DNA of 64,000 nt, taken from an uncultured Roseobacter sp. (lineage in GTDB: Bacteria > Pseudomonadota > Alphaproteobacteria > Rhodobacterales > Rhodobacteraceae). Below, one piece after another: positions 14,078 to 34,723 of the stretch; the first letter of the stretch is position 1, and every line of letters begins with the position of its first letter. The notes under the pieces were generated by a model, which had not been told where the DNA came from, searched no databases, and saw only the letters and a program-made list of their open reading frames with translations. Made by a program: the position numbers and the translations under genes. Location of the stretch: assembly GCF_947499265.1 (NCBI RefSeq), contig NZ_CANMNK010000007.1, forward strand, positions 1-64,000, read 5' to 3'.

Positions 14078-14154
14078 GGTCCCGTGGCTCAACTGGATAG
14101 AGCAGCCCCCTCCTAAGGGGCAGGTTGCAGGTTCGAATCCTGCCGGGGTCGCCA
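14078..14154 (+). tRNA. tRNA-Arg(CCU), island integration site
   Basis: Full cloverleaf of 77 nt with encoded CCA. The anticodon stem GCCCC/GGGGC encloses loop CTCCTAA (anticodon CCT). The T arm is GCAGG-TTCGAAT-CCTGC. The acceptor stem GGTCCCG/CGGGGTC contains a G2-U71 and a U3-G70 wobble. The 3' half from 14104 is duplicated at 34494-34537, marking the attachment site of the genomic island. Confidence 0.95.
14104..14147 (+). repeat. Left attachment repeat (attL, 44 bp)
   Basis: A 44-bp sequence within the tRNA-Arg gene, from the anticodon stem to the acceptor stem, is repeated exactly at 34494-34537. It is the left boundary of the island; the integrase gene begins 113 nt downstream. Confidence 0.93.
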
Positions 14155-14260: not shown

Positions 14261-15430
14261 TTGGCGACCGAAAAGCACACGATTCTTGGCGGAAAGGTTC
14301 ACGTCTACCAGCGGGAAAACAGTCCATTTTGGCAGTGTTCATCGTACCTGAACGGGAAGAACCGCCGCACTTCCACCAAGGAAGAAAGTCTCAAGCTTGC
14401 GAAGGAATTCGCCGAGGATTGGTACCTCACTTTGCGTGGAAAACAGTCTCGCGGAGAGCTTACGAATGAGCGCACGTTTACATTCGCCGCCGATAAATTC
14501 CTTCAAGAATTTGAAGCCGACACTATGGGAGAACGCAGCGCAAAGTGCCTGACCAATCACCAAAATCACGTCCGACTGCACCTGAACCCGTTCTTCGGAA
14601 AACTAGGTTTGTCCGAGATTACAACGACAAAAATTCAAGAATACCGTCTGGCAAGGATGCAATCGACCTACCGGGGGAAGCACCCAGCAGCGGCAACAAT
14701 CCAAAAGGAGACGGTGACGCTGCGTATGACATTAAAGGCGGCGGTACGGCATGGTTGGCTGGCACATATGCCCGATATGTCTGCTCCGTACCGCACGTCA
14801 ACCAAAGTCTCGCATCGTGCTTGGTTTTCGCCTGATGAATATAAGCAACTGTACACGGCCACGCGGGCCAATATCAAAGCTATGATCAACGCAAAGCATC
14901 GCCACCTTGCCGAGCAACTGCACGACAAGGTTTTGTTCATGGCAAATACTGGTATTCGTCCTGATGAAGCCAACTGGCTTGAATACCGGGATGTCGAGAT
15001 CGTCGAAGATGATGCCACCAGCGAGACGATCCTCGAGATCGAAGTGCGCGGCAAGCGCGGTGTTGGATATTGCAAAAGCACCACCGGTGCTGTTCGTCCA
15101 TTTCAGAGAATGGTTGAGCGTAATCAGCCGGAGCCGACCGACCGTCTCTTCCCTGCTGATCACAAAAAGCAGTTCAACCGAATTTTGGATGAGCAAGGCT
15201 TGAAGTTCGACCGACAAGGAAATCGACGCACTCTCTATTCCTTGCGGCACAGCTACATCTCATTTCGATTGCTTGAAGGGGCGGACATCTATCAGATTGC
15301 CAAAAACTGCCGGACAAGTGTCGAGATGATTGAGAAGCACTATGCGGTGCATCTCAAGAACAGTCTCGACGCATCGGCCATAAACGTTCGCCGCACCAAA
15401 CAGTCTGGCGCAAGTCGCCGCTCGATCTAG
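14261..15430 (+). CDS. int: Tyrosine recombinase / phage-type integrase
   Basis: 389 aa, TTG start 106 nt after the tRNA. An N-terminal SAM-like core-binding domain (about 70-165) is followed by the catalytic domain with R233 (TGIRPDE), the SLRHS box (R329, H330) and the nucleophile Y361 (KHYAVHL). The usual box II His before LR is Tyr, as in many integrases of the YSLRH type. It should catalyse integration into and excision from tRNA-Arg. Confidence 0.92.
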   Translation: MATEKHTILGGKVHVYQRENSPFWQCSSYLNGKNRRTSTKEESLKLAKEFAEDWYLTLRGKQSRGELTNERTFTFAADKFLQEFEADTMGERSAKCLTNHQNHVRLHLNPFFGKLGLSEITTTKIQEYRLARMQSTYRGKHPAAATIQKETVTLRMTLKAAVRHGWLAHMPDMSAPYRTSTKVSHRAWFSPDEYKQLYTATRANIKAMINAKHRHLAEQLHDKVLFMANTGIRPDEANWLEYRDVEIVEDDATSETILEIEVRGKRGVGYCKSTTGAVRPFQRMVERNQPEPTDRLFPADHKKQFNRILDEQGLKFDRQGNRRTLYSLRHSYISFRLLEGADIYQIAKNCRTSVEMIEKHYAVHLKNSLDASAINVRRTKQSGASRRSI

Positions 15431-16909: not shown

Positions 16910-17353
16910 TCAAAAATCACCCTCAGCACATTGAAGACATGTGATACCATTCCTGCGCCACATGTTTACTACTGAATTACGATCATCGACCACAAAGGAT
17001 ATCTGGGCACCTTCCTTCTGAAGTTGATCTAACAGTTCTTGTTTGATGACGACATCTGACCGAAAATCGCCTTTTGGGCGCATCAAAAGTCTATCAAACG
17101 GGATTGAGTTCCAAGTAAGCCAGGTTTCGGTTATCTTGCGGCTTTCTTCGCCACGACCGGAGACAAGAATGATCTGGAAATTGTGGCTTTCCCACAGTGT
17201 TCTGTACAGACTGACTACAGGCCGGTTAGGGGTGTCATCGCCCATTTTCGAATTGAAAGACCGCCAATCTGGGTTGGCACCGTCAAGAAAATGCCGACGA
17301 TGTCGTATGTCAGCGATTGTACCATCAATATCAAACAGAATTGTCGGCTTCAT
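16910..17353 (-). CDS. HAD phosphatase like the T4 Pnkp 3'-phosphatase domain
   Basis: 147 aa standalone HAD domain. Motif I is DIDGT (D8, D10); motif II is SGR (S65-R67); a basic stretch MRPKGDFRSD with R92, K94 and K104 matches the substrate-binding signature of polynucleotide kinase-phosphatase; motif IV is DDR (D123-R125). Known relatives remove 3'-phosphates or 2',3'-cyclic phosphates from nucleic acid ends. There is no kinase or ligase domain here. It is the last gene of the methyltransferase/GHKL/receiver operon, 21 nt after the receiver-HEPN gene, so healing of RNA ends made by that protein is a reasonable hypothesis. Confidence 0.82.
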   Translation of the reverse strand: MKPTILFDIDGTIADIRHRRHFLDGANPDWRSFNSKMGDDTPNRPVVSLYRTLWESHNFQIILVSGRGEESRKITETWLTWNSIPFDRLLMRPKGDFRSDVVIKQELLDQLQKEGAQISFVVDDRNSVVNMWRRNGITCLQCAEGDF

Positions 17354-17374
17354 TTACTTCGCCAAAGGTGGTTT

Positions 17375-18241
17375 TCATAAGGCATCCATCAGCCCCTCTT
17401 CTATCAGCACTTCCTTAATGGCCACCAGATTTGTGAGGTGCTTCTTGATGTTAGAACGAATTTCGTTCTTCCAATCATCCGTAAAATGAATTGGCGGATC
17501 GCTGTTTATTGAAGCGAGTACCAATACCCCATCTTCAAATTTTTTCTTGGAATGAGCCAATATATTCCTTTGATTGACGACCTCTTTCATCATTTTATTA
17601 AAAACATCTTTGATTGCCGTGATCCGTGCGATCTTCGGCGCATCAGGCACTTCAACAGCCTTCAGTTCCTCAAGTTTGTCTCTTAGCAGGCCATTTACAA
17701 AGCCATGCTTCTTGCCAAAATCTAATATAGGCTTATTCAATATACGGTCTCTGAAAAGGTCGGACTTTGTGCCGAAAAGAGCTAAAATTATTTCAGTTAG
17801 CTTGTTTTCAAGGTCTATCGCCTCAGAGATTATCATTCCCCGCATGATCGCGACGTTTTTGCTTCGCTCATGGAACCGATTTATCACAGACTTGATTTTT
17901 TCGTCGGCCTCTCCTTTCACGCAGGTGTGGACTCCCATGATTTCCTTGCAGTTTTCTGTAACTGTCTCATCTTGAGAATAGAAAATGATCTCTGTGAGTT
18001 CACCTGAAGCTCGGAGTTCATCTATGAGTTGGCGGCCATCACGATCTCCGTTGATGTTCCAATCTAGAACCAAAAGATCAATTGGTTCAGATGCAAGCTT
18101 TCTCTCTAGGTTTTCTCCATCACCTTCGACCTCGATGTCGAAATTGAACAACTCAGCATATTCGATTTCCAGCTGTTCGCAAAGGGATGCTGGTAAGTCA
18201 TCGTCATCATCGATCCAGAAAATTCTATAGTCTAAGCTCAT
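17375..18241 (-). CDS. Response-regulator receiver fused to HEPN-like domain
   Basis: 288 aa. The receiver domain (about 4-118) has an acidic pocket D11-D13, phospho-acceptor D60 (LVLDWN), switch S89 (FYSQDE) and K109. The C-terminal helical domain (about 125-285) contains R225-N-I-L-A-H230, an R-x4-H motif with polar residue after Arg, as in HEPN ribonucleases. The long helices around it (AIDLENKLTEIIL) also fit a HEPN bundle. No classical DNA-binding output domain is present. Its ATG overlaps the stop of the GHKL protein by 4 nt. Predicted role: phosphorylation-controlled RNase or binding effector. Receiver is secure; HEPN is motif-level inference. Confidence 0.75.
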   Translation of the reverse strand: MSLDYRIFWIDDDDDLPASLCEQLEIEYAELFNFDIEVEGDGENLERKLASEPIDLLVLDWNINGDRDGRQLIDELRASGELTEIIFYSQDETVTENCKEIMGVHTCVKGEADEKIKSVINRFHERSKNVAIMRGMIISEAIDLENKLTEIILALFGTKSDLFRDRILNKPILDFGKKHGFVNGLLRDKLEELKAVEVPDAPKIARITAIKDVFNKMMKEVVNQRNILAHSKKKFEDGVLVLASINSDPPIHFTDDWKNEIRSNIKKHLTNLVAIKEVLIEEGLMDAL

Positions 18242-20616
18242 CTTGAAAACCTCAACTTAAATACCGCGCCAGACAGTTGGCTAGCTTTAACCAACTCAAT
18301 GCTCCCCCTGCGCTTTTCCATTAGCTTTTTGGTCTGCCCAAGCCCAAGCCCAGACCCCGAAGTGGTTGTGAAGCCGATCTCGAAAATCCGATCCACGGAT
18401 TTCGCCACGATGCCCTTGCCGTCATCTGCAAAAGTAACAGTCAAATTCTTTTCGTCCCCTTCAATCACATCGATGAGAATTTTCTTCGCCTTGGCCCGTT
18501 TGGCATTGCTTATGAGATTATCAAAAATAATGGAAATTTCGAGCGGTTGAAATTTGGTCTGAAACCCAATAGCGTTTCGATTTCTAAACTCAAAAATCAT
18601 ATTCTCACCATCTTCGTTTTTGATCACCCCGGTGCATATATTCTCAATGTATTCTTCCAGATATTCGCACAGATCAGCCTCAACGTTCGAGCCTTTCAAG
18701 CTGAAGTTAGCCTTTGTGACGAATTTTGATGTTGTGAGTATTTTGCGTGCTTGAGAGCTGATATTGCTAAGGGTCTCAAGAATTGTATCTTCAGAATACG
18801 ACTGGCCCTTGCGAATTCTTAGAGAGAAGTTTTTCACATAGTTTTCTATAGTCTCTGCTGCGATACCGATATGGTGTACGAAGCTCACAGTGTCAGTAAT
18901 GTCAGTGTTGGCCATTGACCTGAGGAATAAGTTTTCCGAGTAGGCCTTTTCGGTTTCTTTACGTGCTTCTTCAGCTTCTTCTTTGGCCTCGTCAGCTTCC
19001 GCTTCCGCTTCACGCCGGGCTTCCTCAGCCTCCTTAGCCTCCTTTTCTGCCTTGAGACGCTCTTTTCTAGCTTTTTCGGCCTCGGCTTCCGCCTCGCGTC
19101 TTGCTTTGTCGAGTTCTGCTAGTCGCGCTTCTGCCCGAATAACTTCATTTTCGATGTCTTTAGATGAATTACGCAATGCGATCTTTTTGAAATTCCGCAA
19201 TAGACCTTGAATGCTTTTCTCCGAAAGCTCTTCAAAAATATCTACAACTGCTGGATCGTAGTGAACGTCCAAAATTTCATCTGACTTCGTCAAATCTTGA
19301 ATGAGCGCGATGATTTGGGACTTAACGTCGGTACCCTCTTGTAGGGCGCTATCAAAGTCGGTGCCAAGGTTACCGTACTTGACGATATCGACTGCATAGG
19401 CCTCCAATCGTTTCAAAACATGTTCTACGAAAAACTCTCGCAGAAGCTCTGTGGCTTCGTTAGCGACAAGGCCGCCATCGCGACTAGACGCTTCTTGAAA
19501 TTCTGGGTTGTCCCCGCTGATTTCAATTCGTCCAAAGACGTCTCTTGAACCCAGAAATCGCGAGGTCCCCTGCGTCTTTCGGCTATCTAACTGAAAGTTG
19601 TCATGTCCCGGGTCACCCATGGGGTTTATGCGAAATCCGTTCTTGTAGACGAAAACTGACCCAAACCTAACAGGCTGAGTCCCCATATATTTAGTGAAGG
19701 CAGACTTCGCGCCTCTATTAAGCGCAAACAAGCTTACTTCGATGTCGTGAAGTGTATACTCATCGAACTTGTAGGGATTTCGCTCCGTCAGTTCGAAGAT
19801 CAATGTTCCTCGGTCTTCCAACCGAGTTTTGATCTTTTCTCCATCCCCAGAAATCGCGACATTAATAAATGTCGTTTTGATGCCTATTTTTTCAAAAAGA
19901 AAGTTCTCAATAGGGCCGTTGACTTTGTTCCACGGCTCGTCATCTTTGACGCTCTTGTCACTTTCCTCATAGTCCGGTGCATATAGATTGATGGCAAAGT
20001 TCTCTGCATCATTTTCTTGGTTCGGATTAACCAGTTTCTCCAATGACCGCCTAAGTTTCAGAACACGCTCTCGGTCCCAATTTTCGCGCAAATCGTTGAT
20101 TTCCAAAATGGTGCCGCTGGTCAATTTGTAAGGCGCGGAAGTTGCAGTTTCGTATGAAACACCAACTTCTTCGAACTCTTCCTTAGCATCTTGCTCGAAT
20201 GCTTCCCAGTTTACGGACAGAAGGTTGATCGTCGGCGCGGTCTTCTTTTTTGTGTAGATCTTTAGAGACTTACCCAGCCGGTCGCACGAGAACCGTCCTA
20301 TACCTTTGGCTCCAGCGTGAATTCTGGTGCTTTGAATCGCGTCTCTGTAGTCTTCGGTTCCGTCCTTCTTTGCTGAGTAAGCAACAAAAAGCCACTTGTT
20401 CTCCAGATCAGGGAGGTCCATACCCTTGCCGTCATCTTTAATTATGAGTTTTGGGGACGATGTTCTTAGATCTTTGAACGTGACGTCGACTTGTTTTGCA
20501 TGGGCGTCGAACGAGTTCTTGACGAGTTCAAAAACAGCGATGAATTCGTTAGTAATTAGGTCTTTTCCGATGATGTTTTTGAGAGCTGAACTGACTCGAA
20601 ACTTTTTTTCAACCAT
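18238..20616 (-). CDS. Double-GHKL protein: MORC/Hsp90-like ATPase plus histidine-kinase-like module
   Basis: 792 aa. The N-terminal GHKL ATPase has N box ELVKNSFDA (E30, N34, D37), G1 box DDGKGM (61-66) and G2 box GAKGIGRF (102-109). A middle S5-like region follows, then a strong Ala/Glu/Arg coiled coil (about 490-565). A DHp-like helix carries SFVHHIG (candidate phospho-His 581/582). A second GHKL module has N box IIFDNLISNAKRA, DDGKGI (731-736), F box IFEIGFTTT and GSGLGLG. The C-terminus looks like a sensor kinase and the neighbour is a receiver protein, so a phosphorelay is likely. Overlaps the methyltransferase gene by 8 nt. Confidence 0.82.
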   Translation of the reverse strand: MVEKKFRVSSALKNIIGKDLITNEFIAVFELVKNSFDAHAKQVDVTFKDLRTSSPKLIIKDDGKGMDLPDLENKWLFVAYSAKKDGTEDYRDAIQSTRIHAGAKGIGRFSCDRLGKSLKIYTKKKTAPTINLLSVNWEAFEQDAKEEFEEVGVSYETATSAPYKLTSGTILEINDLRENWDRERVLKLRRSLEKLVNPNQENDAENFAINLYAPDYEESDKSVKDDEPWNKVNGPIENFLFEKIGIKTTFINVAISGDGEKIKTRLEDRGTLIFELTERNPYKFDEYTLHDIEVSLFALNRGAKSAFTKYMGTQPVRFGSVFVYKNGFRINPMGDPGHDNFQLDSRKTQGTSRFLGSRDVFGRIEISGDNPEFQEASSRDGGLVANEATELLREFFVEHVLKRLEAYAVDIVKYGNLGTDFDSALQEGTDVKSQIIALIQDLTKSDEILDVHYDPAVVDIFEELSEKSIQGLLRNFKKIALRNSSKDIENEVIRAEARLAELDKARREAEAEAEKARKERLKAEKEAKEAEEARREAEAEADEAKEEAEEARKETEKAYSENLFLRSMANTDITDTVSFVHHIGIAAETIENYVKNFSLRIRKGQSYSEDTILETLSNISSQARKILTTSKFVTKANFSLKGSNVEADLCEYLEEYIENICTGVIKNEDGENMIFEFRNRNAIGFQTKFQPLEISIIFDNLISNAKRAKAKKILIDVIEGDEKNLTVTFADDGKGIVAKSVDRIFEIGFTTTSGSGLGLGQTKKLMEKRRGSIELVKASQLSGAVFKLRFSR

Positions 20617-21865
20617 GTGTCTTTGCCATTTCGATAATCTTTAAGCCAAGCGCTTCAGCCATCAAGGGAGGGACAGCATTCCCGACTTGTGTGTAACGAG
20701 GGCATTCCTGCTTCCGCCTAACTCCACCAGTTGTGTATTTCCCCAAAAACTCGAACCAATCAGGGAAAGTCTGAAGACGGGCGCACTCGCGAACCGTAAG
20801 GATACGCGGCTCGCTGTAGTGTAGTAGATCATCAGGAAGTGTTGTGATGGTTTTTGACAGTTCATCGGGGTGGAGCGGCGTGAAGCATTGTTTCTTGATG
20901 TTATATTTTTCGCGAAATTCTCTAGGTAGAGATTTACCTTTAGGACAACTCTCCAAAATTTCCTTGAATCTCAAAAGTGTTTTGGGCCGATGTCTCGCCA
21001 ATCTGAGGCTATTGGCCCTCTTTCCTGCAGGTAGTCCCTTTCTCATTAGCTTTTGGAATTCCGAATGAGTCTCAGCTCGGTAGTTGATCTGTTTGAAGCC
21101 ATTGGTGTCTTCGCTGCTGTGAACACCAGAGGATTCTACTTCTAAGTCTGAGATAGCTTCCTTCGCACTAATTTTGTGACCATTTAGTTTTTTTCGCGCC
21201 CTGAAATTCGCAGCGTACTCACTGATGTTTTGGAAAGGATCCTCGATGCCAGAGTTTTCGTCGGCAAGATCGGCTCGTACAGCAACAAGAATGAAGCGTG
21301 GTCGGGGTTGAGGGACACCAAAACTAGAAGCGTTTATGACGGATGAGAACGTGCGGTATCCACCCCAACTCAAGCCCTCCAGCTGCTCAACTACTTGCTC
21401 TGAGTGGGTTTGCTTCTTCGCACCTTGGAACTTCGCAGTGAAGCCTTTGACATTTTCAAAGACTAAAAATTTCGGGCGGATGATGTTTACGATTTCAAGG
21501 TATTCATTTTTCAATTGATTACGTGGGTCGCCTTCTTGCCGACGGCCAGCGAAAGAGAAACCCTGACAAGGCGGGCCGCCTGCAATGAGGTCAATTTTGC
21601 CTTTAAGCGCAATCAGTTGTACTCGGTATTGTTCGAGTAACTCCGAGGTGCTGATTGGCTCGTGAGGCAACCATTCCGGCCAGTCGAACTTCAGTGCTTT
21701 CTTACGGTTGAAATTATGGGCGAACGTCTTGAAAGCATCCTCGCTTTTCTCGATGGCAAACACACCTTTCCATCCAGCCTTAGTCAGGCCAAGTGATAGG
21801 CCGCCACAGCCAGAAAAGAGATCGATGAATCGCATACTAAAACCCGTTTTCAACTGAACTAGCAT
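20609..21865 (-). CDS. dcm-like: DNA (cytosine-5-)-methyltransferase
   Basis: 418 aa. C5-methylase motifs in order: I FSGCGGLSLGL; IV GGPPCQGFSF with catalytic C100; VI FENV (137-139); VIII QPRPRFILVA; a variable target-recognition region (about 215-330); IX RECARLQTFPDWF; X YTQVGNAVPP. The start at 21865 has AAGGGA 5 nt upstream; an internal ATG at 21835 (starting MRFIDLF) is the alternative. No adjacent restriction endonuclease is evident. The next three genes follow with overlaps or a 21-nt gap, so methylation is probably tied to the GHKL/receiver-HEPN module. Confidence 0.93.
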   Translation of the reverse strand: MLVQLKTGFSMRFIDLFSGCGGLSLGLTKAGWKGVFAIEKSEDAFKTFAHNFNRKKALKFDWPEWLPHEPISTSELLEQYRVQLIALKGKIDLIAGGPPCQGFSFAGRRQEGDPRNQLKNEYLEIVNIIRPKFLVFENVKGFTAKFQGAKKQTHSEQVVEQLEGLSWGGYRTFSSVINASSFGVPQPRPRFILVAVRADLADENSGIEDPFQNISEYAANFRARKKLNGHKISAKEAISDLEVESSGVHSSEDTNGFKQINYRAETHSEFQKLMRKGLPAGKRANSLRLARHRPKTLLRFKEILESCPKGKSLPREFREKYNIKKQCFTPLHPDELSKTITTLPDDLLHYSEPRILTVRECARLQTFPDWFEFLGKYTTGGVRRKQECPRYTQVGNAVPPLMAEALGLKIIEMAKTHG

Positions 21866-22018: not shown

Positions 22019-22558
22019 TCAAGCCCGCGATACAGTCTGCTTGCTTACCCCAAACAAACGAGCAATCTCTCCAAGTGATCGCTTTTCCTCATCCCGCATT
22101 TGCCGCACAGCCTCCTTCTGTTCAGTATTTAAGACGGGACGTCGGCCACCAATTCGCCCGCGCTTTCTTGCAGCGGCCAAACCTTCTTTTGTCCGCTCGA
22201 CAATCCTCTCCCGCTCAAATTCAGCAATCGAACCAAAAACATGAAACACCAAGCGTCCTGCTGGGGTCGTCGTGTCGATATCTTCTCCAAGACTTCGAAA
22301 ACCCGCACCTCTCTCACGGATCAGCTCGATTATATCTATGAGATCGCGAAGTGAACGCGCTAACCGATCATATTTCGTTACGATGACCACATCGTCCTCG
22401 CGCAACTGTTCAAGTAAACGCATCAACTCAGCGCGCTGTCGCGTCTTGCCAGTTTTTTTCTCTGTGAAGACTTTGTGTACACCGGCGTCTCTCAACGCAT
22501 CGATCTGCGCATCAAGTGCCTGATCGTCGGTTGAGACACGCGCATAGCCAAAAATCAT
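22019..22558 (-). CDS. Serine resolvase/invertase
   Basis: 179 aa. The N-terminal resolvase domain has nucleophile S9 (YARVSTDDQ), the VTKYDRLARS motif with conserved Arg and the FERERI helix E region. The C-terminal HTH (LGEIARLFGVSKQTVSRA) ends the protein. Typical of Tn3-type resolvases or plasmid dimer resolution. No transposase is nearby. Palindromes immediately upstream (22578-22676) are candidate res subsites. Confidence 0.92.
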   Translation of the reverse strand: MIFGYARVSTDDQALDAQIDALRDAGVHKVFTEKKTGKTRQRAELMRLLEQLREDDVVIVTKYDRLARSLRDLIDIIELIRERGAGFRSLGEDIDTTTPAGRLVFHVFGSIAEFERERIVERTKEGLAAARKRGRIGGRRPVLNTEQKEAVRQMRDEEKRSLGEIARLFGVSKQTVSRA

Positions 22559-22772: not shown

Positions 22773-23369
22773 TTGAGCGATAAGGCCAGTGAAATTCCAG
22801 AATGTCATGAAGCGCGCGTCCTATTGATGCTCAACTGGCGACGCCGAGCTATTCGAGCGAGCAACGGACATTACCGAGCATCAAATAGCTGTCGGCAGTG
22901 GAGCAACTTCATGACCTGCTTCAACATCATCTCTGCAATCGCAGTACTTTTCTTTTCGAACAACCGGTTTTTCGGGAACGGCGGTCAAGCTGATGAAACC
23001 ATAGGGTTGCTAGGGAATAGTGACCTATACACCGCGATTGCGGGATTACTCGTCGTTCTTACGACTGCGTTGCAATACGTTCTTAAACTCGAAACCAAAA
23101 CCAAGGATGCGAAGAGCGCGGGCAATGACTTCACAAATATCAAAAGAGAAATCGAGCTTCTTCTTTCTGAGAGTTCGATTTCGCTTGAGAAAGCTCGTTC
23201 AATCCAAATTTCACACACCCATGCCTCAAGAAACCATGAACTAGTACCTCGGCGTATCTGGCAAGCAGCATCTGAGCAAACGGCGACCGCATTCCTTGAA
23301 GATGCGGCTTTTGAACAGTCAGTGCTTCGAAAGTTTGGTTTGTCTGAATCGACCAACATCGAGAACTAA
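22773..23369 (+). CDS. SLATT-like two-TM membrane protein
   Basis: 198 aa, TTG start. Two TM helices (about 45-62 and 86-104) are separated by a short loop. A basic amphipathic N-terminal region (NWRRRAIRASNGHYRAS) precedes them and a soluble helical C-terminus follows. This is the organisation of SLATT domains, which are predicted membrane effectors associated with nucleotide-signalling and other defence systems. No cyclase or SLOG sensor is adjacent, so it may act alone or with the FRG gene 213 nt downstream. Fold assignment is by pattern, not alignment. Confidence 0.65.
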   Translation: MSDKASEIPECHEARVLLMLNWRRRAIRASNGHYRASNSCRQWSNFMTCFNIISAIAVLFFSNNRFFGNGGQADETIGLLGNSDLYTAIAGLLVVLTTALQYVLKLETKTKDAKSAGNDFTNIKREIELLLSESSISLEKARSIQISHTHASRNHELVPRRIWQAASEQTATAFLEDAAFEQSVLRKFGLSESTNIEN

Positions 23370-23582: not shown

Positions 23583-24395
23583 TTGACCACCGAGACCGCA
23601 ACGTCCTGGAGCCATTTGTATGAGCTTCTTTTTCAGGACAGCAAAAACGACAGACTTGGTCGGTTCAAATCGCGGTACGCGTTTCGAGGCGTATCGACCG
23701 CACGTTACAAGATGGAAACTTCGCTAATGCGTCAGGGCGGCGAATTCGCAAAGACCGAAAACCATATACTTCGCCAGTTCAAGAAGTACGCCTATCAGCA
23801 TTTAGGCGACCACCATAACGAGTGGTATTGGCTGTCTGTAGGACAGCATTACGGCCTACCAACCCGGTTGCTTGATTGGTCTTATTCGCCAGACGTCGCG
23901 CTGCATTTCGCAACTTCCAACACGGACAAGATGAAGGAGGATGGCGCAGTTTGGATGGTGAATTATAAGGAATTACATCAAAAAGCCCCTCCGAAAATTC
24001 GGGGTGTGATGGAGGCAGAAAAAACTTGGATACTTACAACTGACCTAATGTCTGAAGGACTCAATAACCTCGCTGAGCTGGATGAGTTGGGTCACAAAAC
24101 GGGAGACTTCGTTCTGTTCTTCGAGCCACCTGCGTTGGATGCAAGGATATACAATCAGTTCGCATACTTCTCGATTTCCTCTAGGCCGGATTTGTTGATC
24201 GATGATCATCTTGCCACTAGCAGCGGCACGCCATGGCGAAAAATTATCATCCCAGCTGACTTGAAGTGGGAAGTTCGAGACAAGCTTGATCAGCGCAATA
24301 TCAGTGAAAGAGTGCTCTTCCCCGGTCTTGGCGGGCTGTCCGAATGGTTGAAACGGTACTATTTACCTACAGGAAGCGCTGCTCCTAAGCCTTAA
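23583..24395 (+). CDS. FRG-domain protein
   Basis: 270 aa. The TTG start is supported by a strong AGAGGAGG 8 nt upstream. The FRG domain signature is present: YAFRG (F34-R35-G36), then the block QHYGLPTRLLDW (about 88-99) and SPDVALHFAT. FRG domains are of uncertain activity and are often found in phage-defence islands. It is downstream of the SLATT-like gene and ends in a copy of the intergenic repeat. Confidence 0.85.
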   Translation: MTTETATSWSHLYELLFQDSKNDRLGRFKSRYAFRGVSTARYKMETSLMRQGGEFAKTENHILRQFKKYAYQHLGDHHNEWYWLSVGQHYGLPTRLLDWSYSPDVALHFATSNTDKMKEDGAVWMVNYKELHQKAPPKIRGVMEAEKTWILTTDLMSEGLNNLAELDELGHKTGDFVLFFEPPALDARIYNQFAYFSISSRPDLLIDDHLATSSGTPWRKIIIPADLKWEVRDKLDQRNISERVLFPGLGGLSEWLKRYYLPTGSAAPKP

Positions 24396-34493: not shown

Positions 34494-34537
34494 AGCCCCC
34501 TCCTAAGGGGCAGGTTGCAGGTTCGAATCCTGCCGGG
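34494..34537 (+). repeat. Right attachment repeat (attR, 44 bp)
   Basis: Exact copy of 14104-14147. The sequence that follows (ATCACCA) differs from the intact tRNA end (GTCGCCA) at two positions. It probably retains the original host tRNA 3' end displaced by the island. Confidence 0.93.
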
Positions 34538-34723
34538 ATCACCAAAAACACTTTCAAAAAGAGTGCTTAGAGCTGCAAGGATTGTCGCGGGGTGCTCGCG
34601 AGGCGTCTCGGTGGCGTGAGCGATGTTGAAAGGTCCTCGTCTTTTTGTTTCAGGCATTCTGCTTATGTCGATTGGCGAGGCGGCGCATATCGCTTCGTCG
34701 GAACGCCATGAAAGGGAACTGTT

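Follow-up and report, generated by a model that had tools for sequence, protein, structure and literature searches.

Four tightly packed minus-strand open reading frames (ORFs), coding for a C5 methylase, a double-GHKL kinase, a receiver and a Pnkp-type HAD phosphatase, lie at positions 16910-21865 of the 64,000-nucleotide stretch analysed here (the window, from contig NZ_CANMNK010000007.1 of an uncultured Roseobacter sp.) and, judging from their sequences, probably constitute a virus-defence device. Their more specific reading as a methylation-gated two-component anti-invader cassette, whose output would be an RNase and whose outcome would be abortive infection, is given an even chance. The kinase-receiver-C5-methylase core was already described computationally in 2021 as HEF_HK / Response_reg_2 (Bellieny-Rabelo 2021, PMC8011034), and the predicted HEPN output and the phosphatase appear to be new relative to that core.

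A preliminary description of this DNA had given the four ORFs, their order and strand, and their spacing (overlaps of 8 and 4 nucleotides, then a 21-nucleotide gap), all of which were found as described, as were the residues C100 in PPCQ, H581/H582, D60 and R225-x4-H230 at the positions named. The first gene (20609-21865, minus strand) encodes a C5-cytosine DNA methyltransferase of 418 amino acids (Pfam PF00145 DNA_methylase, 8.7e-61; dcm TIGR00675), in which the motifs FSGCG, PPCQ (holding Cys100), ENV, QPRPR and GNAV are all present. It is followed by a double-GHKL, paraMORC-like histidine kinase of 792 amino acids (18238-20616, minus strand; PF13589 HATPase_c_3, 5.3e-27; PF02518 HATPase_c, 3.2e-19), laid out as an N-terminal ATPase module, a linker, a DHp-like region with H581 and a C-terminal catalytic ATPase domain, the motifs of both GHKL modules being present. 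The third product is a response regulator of 288 amino acids (17375-18241, minus strand; PF00072 Response_reg, 9.8e-8), which combines a receiver containing D12, D13 and D60 with a C-terminal HEPN-like domain containing R225-N226-x3-H230 (RNILAH). Finally, the 147-amino-acid HAD phosphatase of the polynucleotide kinase-phosphatase type (16910-17353, minus strand; PF25109 HAD_PNKP, 5.9e-37, with 127.4 bits against a cut-off of 27.6) has the motifs DIDGT, SGR and DDRNSVV; since Pfam finds no linked 5'-kinase domain in it, it is not a full polynucleotide kinase-phosphatase.

The kinase has no second copy in the genome, the sole other match being a short histidine-kinase-domain one at 8.5e-4. Among the features of a type II restriction-modification system, the DNA methylase is present and a cognate endonuclease is not found in the operon by Pfam, which names no DNA restriction endonuclease either in the four genes or in the six neighbours scanned, two of which match no Pfam family. 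With PADLOC (2023), the receiver has no match, the HAD is at chance level (0.05), the kinase is matched weakly (best 1.2e-4) and the methylase is matched by generic models.

Co-occurrence of the four families, which the preliminary description had proposed to look for, is observed at six loci besides the window (L051, L064, L080, L082, L091 and L145), with the same gene order in five of them and the methylase placed after the HAD in L145. More precisely, a pattern search with two HADs across the species-genome collection led to 15 loci, three with kinase and receiver (L051 and L064, both with the methylase as well, and L052, which has three of the four genes and whose contig starts within the kinase gene), eight with Rtc RNA-repair genes and four with neither, and viral-contig scans with kinase profiles gave the full sets at L080, L082, L091 and L145. 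The whole operon is found in Cognatiyoonia sediminum (L051, with G010 and L043 being the same locus); the idea that the cassette is unique to this genome is ruled out by further loci such as this one. The receiver, used as a single-protein query, found nothing in plasmids, viral contigs or genome contigs, and in 292 genomes of the order it matched 265, ordinary receivers dominating and one relative being recognised (G010). Between the window and L051, L091, L064, L082 and L080, identity amounts to 49-72% for the methylase (72% with the L051 copy), 34-73% for the HAD, 33-39% for the kinase and 17-24% for the receiver. Such conservation of methylase and HAD alongside diverged kinase and receiver would be expected of a sensor and an effector that are either under pressure or exchanged.

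The receiver C-terminus and the kinase

The C-terminal part of the response regulator is likely, although not proven, to be a HEPN domain. The HEPN superfamily is characterised by the motif R-x4-6-H, which is found in the window receiver as the R225 and H230 pair. In 15 HEPN-type receivers with 16-23% identity to that of the window, R225, N226, H230 and R262 are invariant, together with D12, F32, D60, G69, R77, Y88, R134 and G135; among 58 other kinase loci, L154 alone has the motif, by chance. Besides, some of these receivers are weakly matched by profiles, namely DUF4145 (3.6e-4) and HepT-like (0.0029), both at L090 and under their cut-offs, RiboL-PSP (7.4e-4) and Apea (0.026), each of the four in one of the 15 receivers. 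DUF4145 is presented as a HEPN family in a passage of PMC3710099, and HepT-like, RiboL-PSP and Apea were taken as such from their Pfam names. In the same line, a profile comparison with five RiboL-PSP HEPN sequences gave P = 5.9e-4 and a score of 30, with RNILAH aligned to RNDIAH, compared to P values of 0.26-0.95 and scores up to 13.8 in the controls (five column shuffles and one reversal).

Several results nevertheless weigh against this assignment: the HHalign probability of the RiboL-PSP match is 29%, with 20 columns left on realignment; a profile comparison with eleven DUF4145 sequences gave no match (P = 0.51); the window receiver itself has no HEPN match in Pfam; and, in a structural search with its AlphaFold2 (AF2) model (predicted local distance difference test, pLDDT, 75.4), HEPN-type entries did not rank above generic helical bundles. 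The receiver-HEPN claim of the preliminary description is favoured by the invariant RN-x3-H in 15 diverged sequences and by the weak profile matches, while the structure search of the model returns a generic bundle.

As regards the kinase, its N-terminus distantly resembles the BbrUII/HgiDII restriction enzymes, as they are named by NCBIfam (5.9e-25; 87.9 bits against a cut-off of 550 for that model). The pair H581/H582 proposed in the preliminary description stands for its first member: H581 and the GHKL motif residues are invariant in 18 clade kinases, and H582 is not the invariant one. In a wider 9-row kinase alignment, the His column (H581) is not invariant. A 66-row kinase tree places the window in a 22-row clade with a Shimodaira-Hasegawa-like approximate likelihood ratio test (SH-aLRT) value of 100, this being a quick tree with long branches, no bootstrap, and without L144 and L145, which were found later. 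The clade includes all 19 rows whose neighbouring ORF bears RN-x3-H, the remaining three being L083, L097 and L133, the last with its receiver cut by the contig end.

Kinase relatives at L083 (8562-9900), L097 (8514-9891) and L003 (8135-9465) come with a short receiver that lacks HEPN, plus a separate protein of 221-226 amino acids, in which GHG or SHG is followed by a later Cys; it is caspase/CHAT-like by eye, and Pfam gives nothing over cut-off. An effector swap is possible there. At L089 (5989-10886), the kinase gene between methylase and HEPN-type receiver is broken, giving the locus the look of a decayed copy. In plasmids, Campylobacter accounts for 43 of the 89 records with a kinase relative, and on a Campylobacter coli plasmid (L007) such a relative stands beside a response regulator and dcm.

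The HAD phosphatase and its relatives in RNA-repair loci

At the loci found with kinase queries, a HAD lies beside the receiver at 4 of the 16 loci of HEPN type compared to 0 of the 58 others, the one-sided Fisher p = 0.0016 being optimistic because the loci are related. The HAD is thus tied to the RNase type yet accessory, and the preliminary view of it as a fixed part of the system is not borne out. The C5 methylase, for its part, is found in 16/16 HEPN-type loci vs 30/58 others.

In this count, the largest downstream ORF adjoining the kinase was taken, ORFs without the motif being classed as "other" without each being checked as a receiver; a HAD was scored if matched with more than 25 bits within 200 nucleotides of that ORF, and a methylase anywhere in the locus. 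Six plasmid loci are included, chosen by the authors among 40 listed of 89 records. L154, classed as HEPN by motif alone, was moved to "other" because its ORF fails to match the profile of the HEPN-type receivers and a C5-methylase match is missing from the locus; if it is kept as HEPN-type, the count becomes 4/17 vs 0/57 (p = 0.0021). Dropped from the count were L089, L112, L119 and L072 (no ORF adjoining the kinase, L089 having a HEPN-type receiver further away), L101 and L108 (duplicates), L092, L133 and L141 (contig ends too near) and L157 (no kinase), and L160, with short flanks, stands outside it. The 4/16 excludes the window and five further loci, three obtained with HAD queries and two with receiver queries, and some of the loci counted are near-copies; adding these five gives 7/21 vs 0/58 (p = 4e-5), a biased figure.

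Outside the cassette, relatives of the HAD lie beside RtcB in 8 of 12 non-system loci (L053, L054, L057, L058, L060, L061, L062 and L065), often with RtcR, RtcA, RlaP or Thg1, and the closest of them, at Rtc loci, are 58-61% identical over the best segment. Pfam identified RtcR (PF06956), RtcB (PF01139), RtcA (PF01137), RlaP (PF10127), Thg1 (PF04446) and an AAA_33 P-loop protein at three sampled loci, and the Rtc genes of the eight loci were assigned by similarity to these three. The relatives in RtcB loci therefore provide support, independent of the cassette, for a role of this HAD clade at RNA ends, a role which the preliminary description had proposed and which gains from the clade being found mainly in RNA-repair loci. 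To be set against this, more distant relatives are common in phages (3128 records) and occur in other settings too, 516 Escherichia coli plasmid records among them.

These occurrences, together with relatives in iron-transport clusters, the presence of the HAD in L145 and its absence from the similar L144, and the HADs of the system not forming one clade, would fit a phosphatase with no connection to the RNase output, either carried along as a passenger or acting as a DNA 3'-phosphatase. Such a reading is held to be improbable, given that among cassette loci the HAD is found only with HEPN-type receivers, that it is placed tightly behind the receiver and that its near relatives are mostly at Rtc loci.

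In the Sphingomonadales loci L053 (3716-8435), L054 and L057, the gene immediately after RtcR codes for the HAD, and rtcB and rtcA lie on the opposite strand; the HAD may here be an additional enzyme of the Rtc RNA-repair operon. L058, L060, L061, L062 and L065, mostly from Elusimicrobiota, combine RtcB and HAD, in part with RlaP, a Thg1-like protein and AAA_33, in a rich RNA-repair cluster. Contexts other than RNA repair exist too: Rhodobacterales plasmids (L040 and L041) have an iron ABC transporter cluster in which genes for an MBL-fold protein and a histidine phosphatase precede a related HAD.

A possible mechanism and its alternatives

In the mechanism favoured here, the C5 methylase would mark the host's own sites, and the kinase, through its N-terminal ATPase module of paraMORC type, would engage foreign DNA lacking the mark. 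The C-terminal catalytic domain would then autophosphorylate H581 and the phosphate would pass to D60, as suggested by the conservation of these residues, whereupon the phosphorylated receiver would activate the attached predicted HEPN RNase, which would cut RNA and stop the infected cell. In the subset with a HAD, this enzyme would act on the RNA ends left by the HEPN domain, most likely by stripping off the phosphate, whether 3' or cyclic, and so keeping RtcB-type ligation from undoing the cut; alternatively, it may take part in RNA healing once the threat is over. The locking role is preferred because neither a kinase acting on RNA ends nor a ligase is among the four genes. The complete chain, in which a DNA-methylation sensor acts on an RNase by way of a true His-Asp phosphorelay and an RNA-end phosphatase shared with RNA-repair operons fixes the fate of the cut RNA, is proposed tentatively, its chances being somewhat below even.

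If true, this would be a restriction system whose "endonuclease" is an RNase switched by phosphorylation, in which a restriction-like self/non-self mark could trigger abortive infection in place of DNA cutting, and the 2021 kinase-receiver-methylase family would gain a predicted output enzyme. Kinase relatives with other outputs would, in that case, point to a modular platform of phosphorelay-triggered effectors. Besides, the reason why an RNA-repair-type phosphatase accompanies an RNase would become testable, the residues to mutate being few and known.

Instead of making the cuts irreparable, the HAD could, together with host enzymes, repair the RNA cut by the HEPN domain and save the cell when the alarm was false, in line with the healing or resetting role put forward in the preliminary description. 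This is considered unlikely: close HAD relatives do adjoin RtcB, RtcA, RlaP, Thg1-like and P-loop kinase genes, but by Pfam the four genes include neither such a kinase nor a ligase, and a bare 3'-phosphatase alone would remove the very RNA end that RtcB needs.

A reading with still less in its favour is that of a regulatory two-component system which only controls a restriction-modification unit, the receiver C-terminus being a structural helical bundle and no nuclease. The generic bundle returned by the structural search and the restriction-modification association reported in PMC8011034 would agree with it. However, an output domain for DNA binding is neither detected by Pfam in the receiver nor present among the families matched by its 14 relatives, R-N-x3-H is invariant over very diverged sequences, and two clade kinases (L083 and L097) are arranged otherwise, with the short receiver and separate protein. 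Finally, a selfish addiction device of the mobile element, in which methylase loss would unmask chromosomal sites, the kinase would fire and HEPN would kill, so that the element would be retained, phage defence being secondary, is judged very improbable, although the cassette is located on an integrative element and the methylase accompanies every HEPN-type locus counted, and its machinery would be identical to that of the defence model, from which the present data do not separate it.

Related systems and the carrying element

The HEF_HK / Response_reg_2 family, as it is presented in PMC8011034, consists of a soluble kinase with HATPase_c_3, DHp and HATPase_c, an adjoining receiver protein and a nearby C5 methylase, with 91.6% linkage over 644 regions; the window kinase likewise unites HATPase_c_3 with HATPase_c and adjoins a receiver gene, and a C5 methylase is a neighbour here too. 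Given this description, the earlier claim that no described system has the combination is not supported as made and needs narrowing. According to the same source, the receivers have no further known domain, and Vsr, HNH and other nucleases occur as neighbours; in its main text, the terms HEPN, RNase, Pnkp, phage and abortive never occur. Among the papers searched, no receiver-HEPN-methylase system was found. The window kinase, with five families matched at E <= 0.1, does not match PF19191 HEF_HK, and the window receiver reaches 15.0 bits with PF19192 Response_reg_2 against a cut-off of 27, the latter family being matched at E <= 0.1 by 3 of the 15 HEPN-type receivers (best 1.4e-4). On these sequence comparisons, the window cassette is outside HEF_HK / Response_reg_2 by Pfam, yet it is predicted to work like that family and to be kin to it.

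The paraMORC ATPases (Iyer 2008, PMC2292703) and the BbrUII/HgiDII restriction enzymes likewise have an N-terminal GHKL module and a methylase-linked neighbourhood; their ATPase is associated with DNA endonucleases or helicases, that of the cassette with the histidine-kinase half of the protein and with a receiver. A GHKL ATPase and a HEPN domain in a restriction context, as in the cassette, are also found in the Ymh-family HEPN fused to paraMORC (Anantharaman 2013, PMC3710099), but this is a direct fusion, and the passage on it names no receiver, phosphorelay or HAD. The Rtc RNA-repair loci share with the cassette a HAD of the same clade, which accompanies RtcB and in part RtcR, RtcA, RlaP or Thg1 in the former and the kinase-receiver pair in the latter. 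Finally, Detocs uses two-component signalling for defence, with an effector degrading nucleotides and, to our knowledge, without a methylase; by Pfam, none of the four cassette genes has an effector domain of that nucleotide-degrading type.

The claim that the cassette sits in a tRNA-borne island is confirmed by a tRNA-Arg(CCT) that serves as integration site (14078-14154, plus strand), a phage-type integrase (14261-15430, plus strand; Pfam Phage_int_SAM_3 just over cut-off, Phage_integrase under it at 0.0038) and a repeat of the tRNA 3' end. The latter forms one attachment (att) copy at 14130-14154 and a second one, of 25 bp with 2 mismatches, at 34520-34544 (plus strand), the far end of the 20.4-kb element; such a repeat has a mean of 0.00 in 100 shuffles, and its 24-bp core is present at just these 2 sites in the genome. 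The element also carries replication- and transfer-type genes. Upstream of the cassette, a gene of the serine resolvase/invertase type (22019-22558, by Pfam) may act as a switch or have been inserted separately. Beside the cassette also lie genes for a SLATT-type protein (22773-23369, just below the NCBIfam cut-off) and an FRG-domain protein (23583-24395, PADLOC PDC-S15 models), which are perhaps another defence unit.
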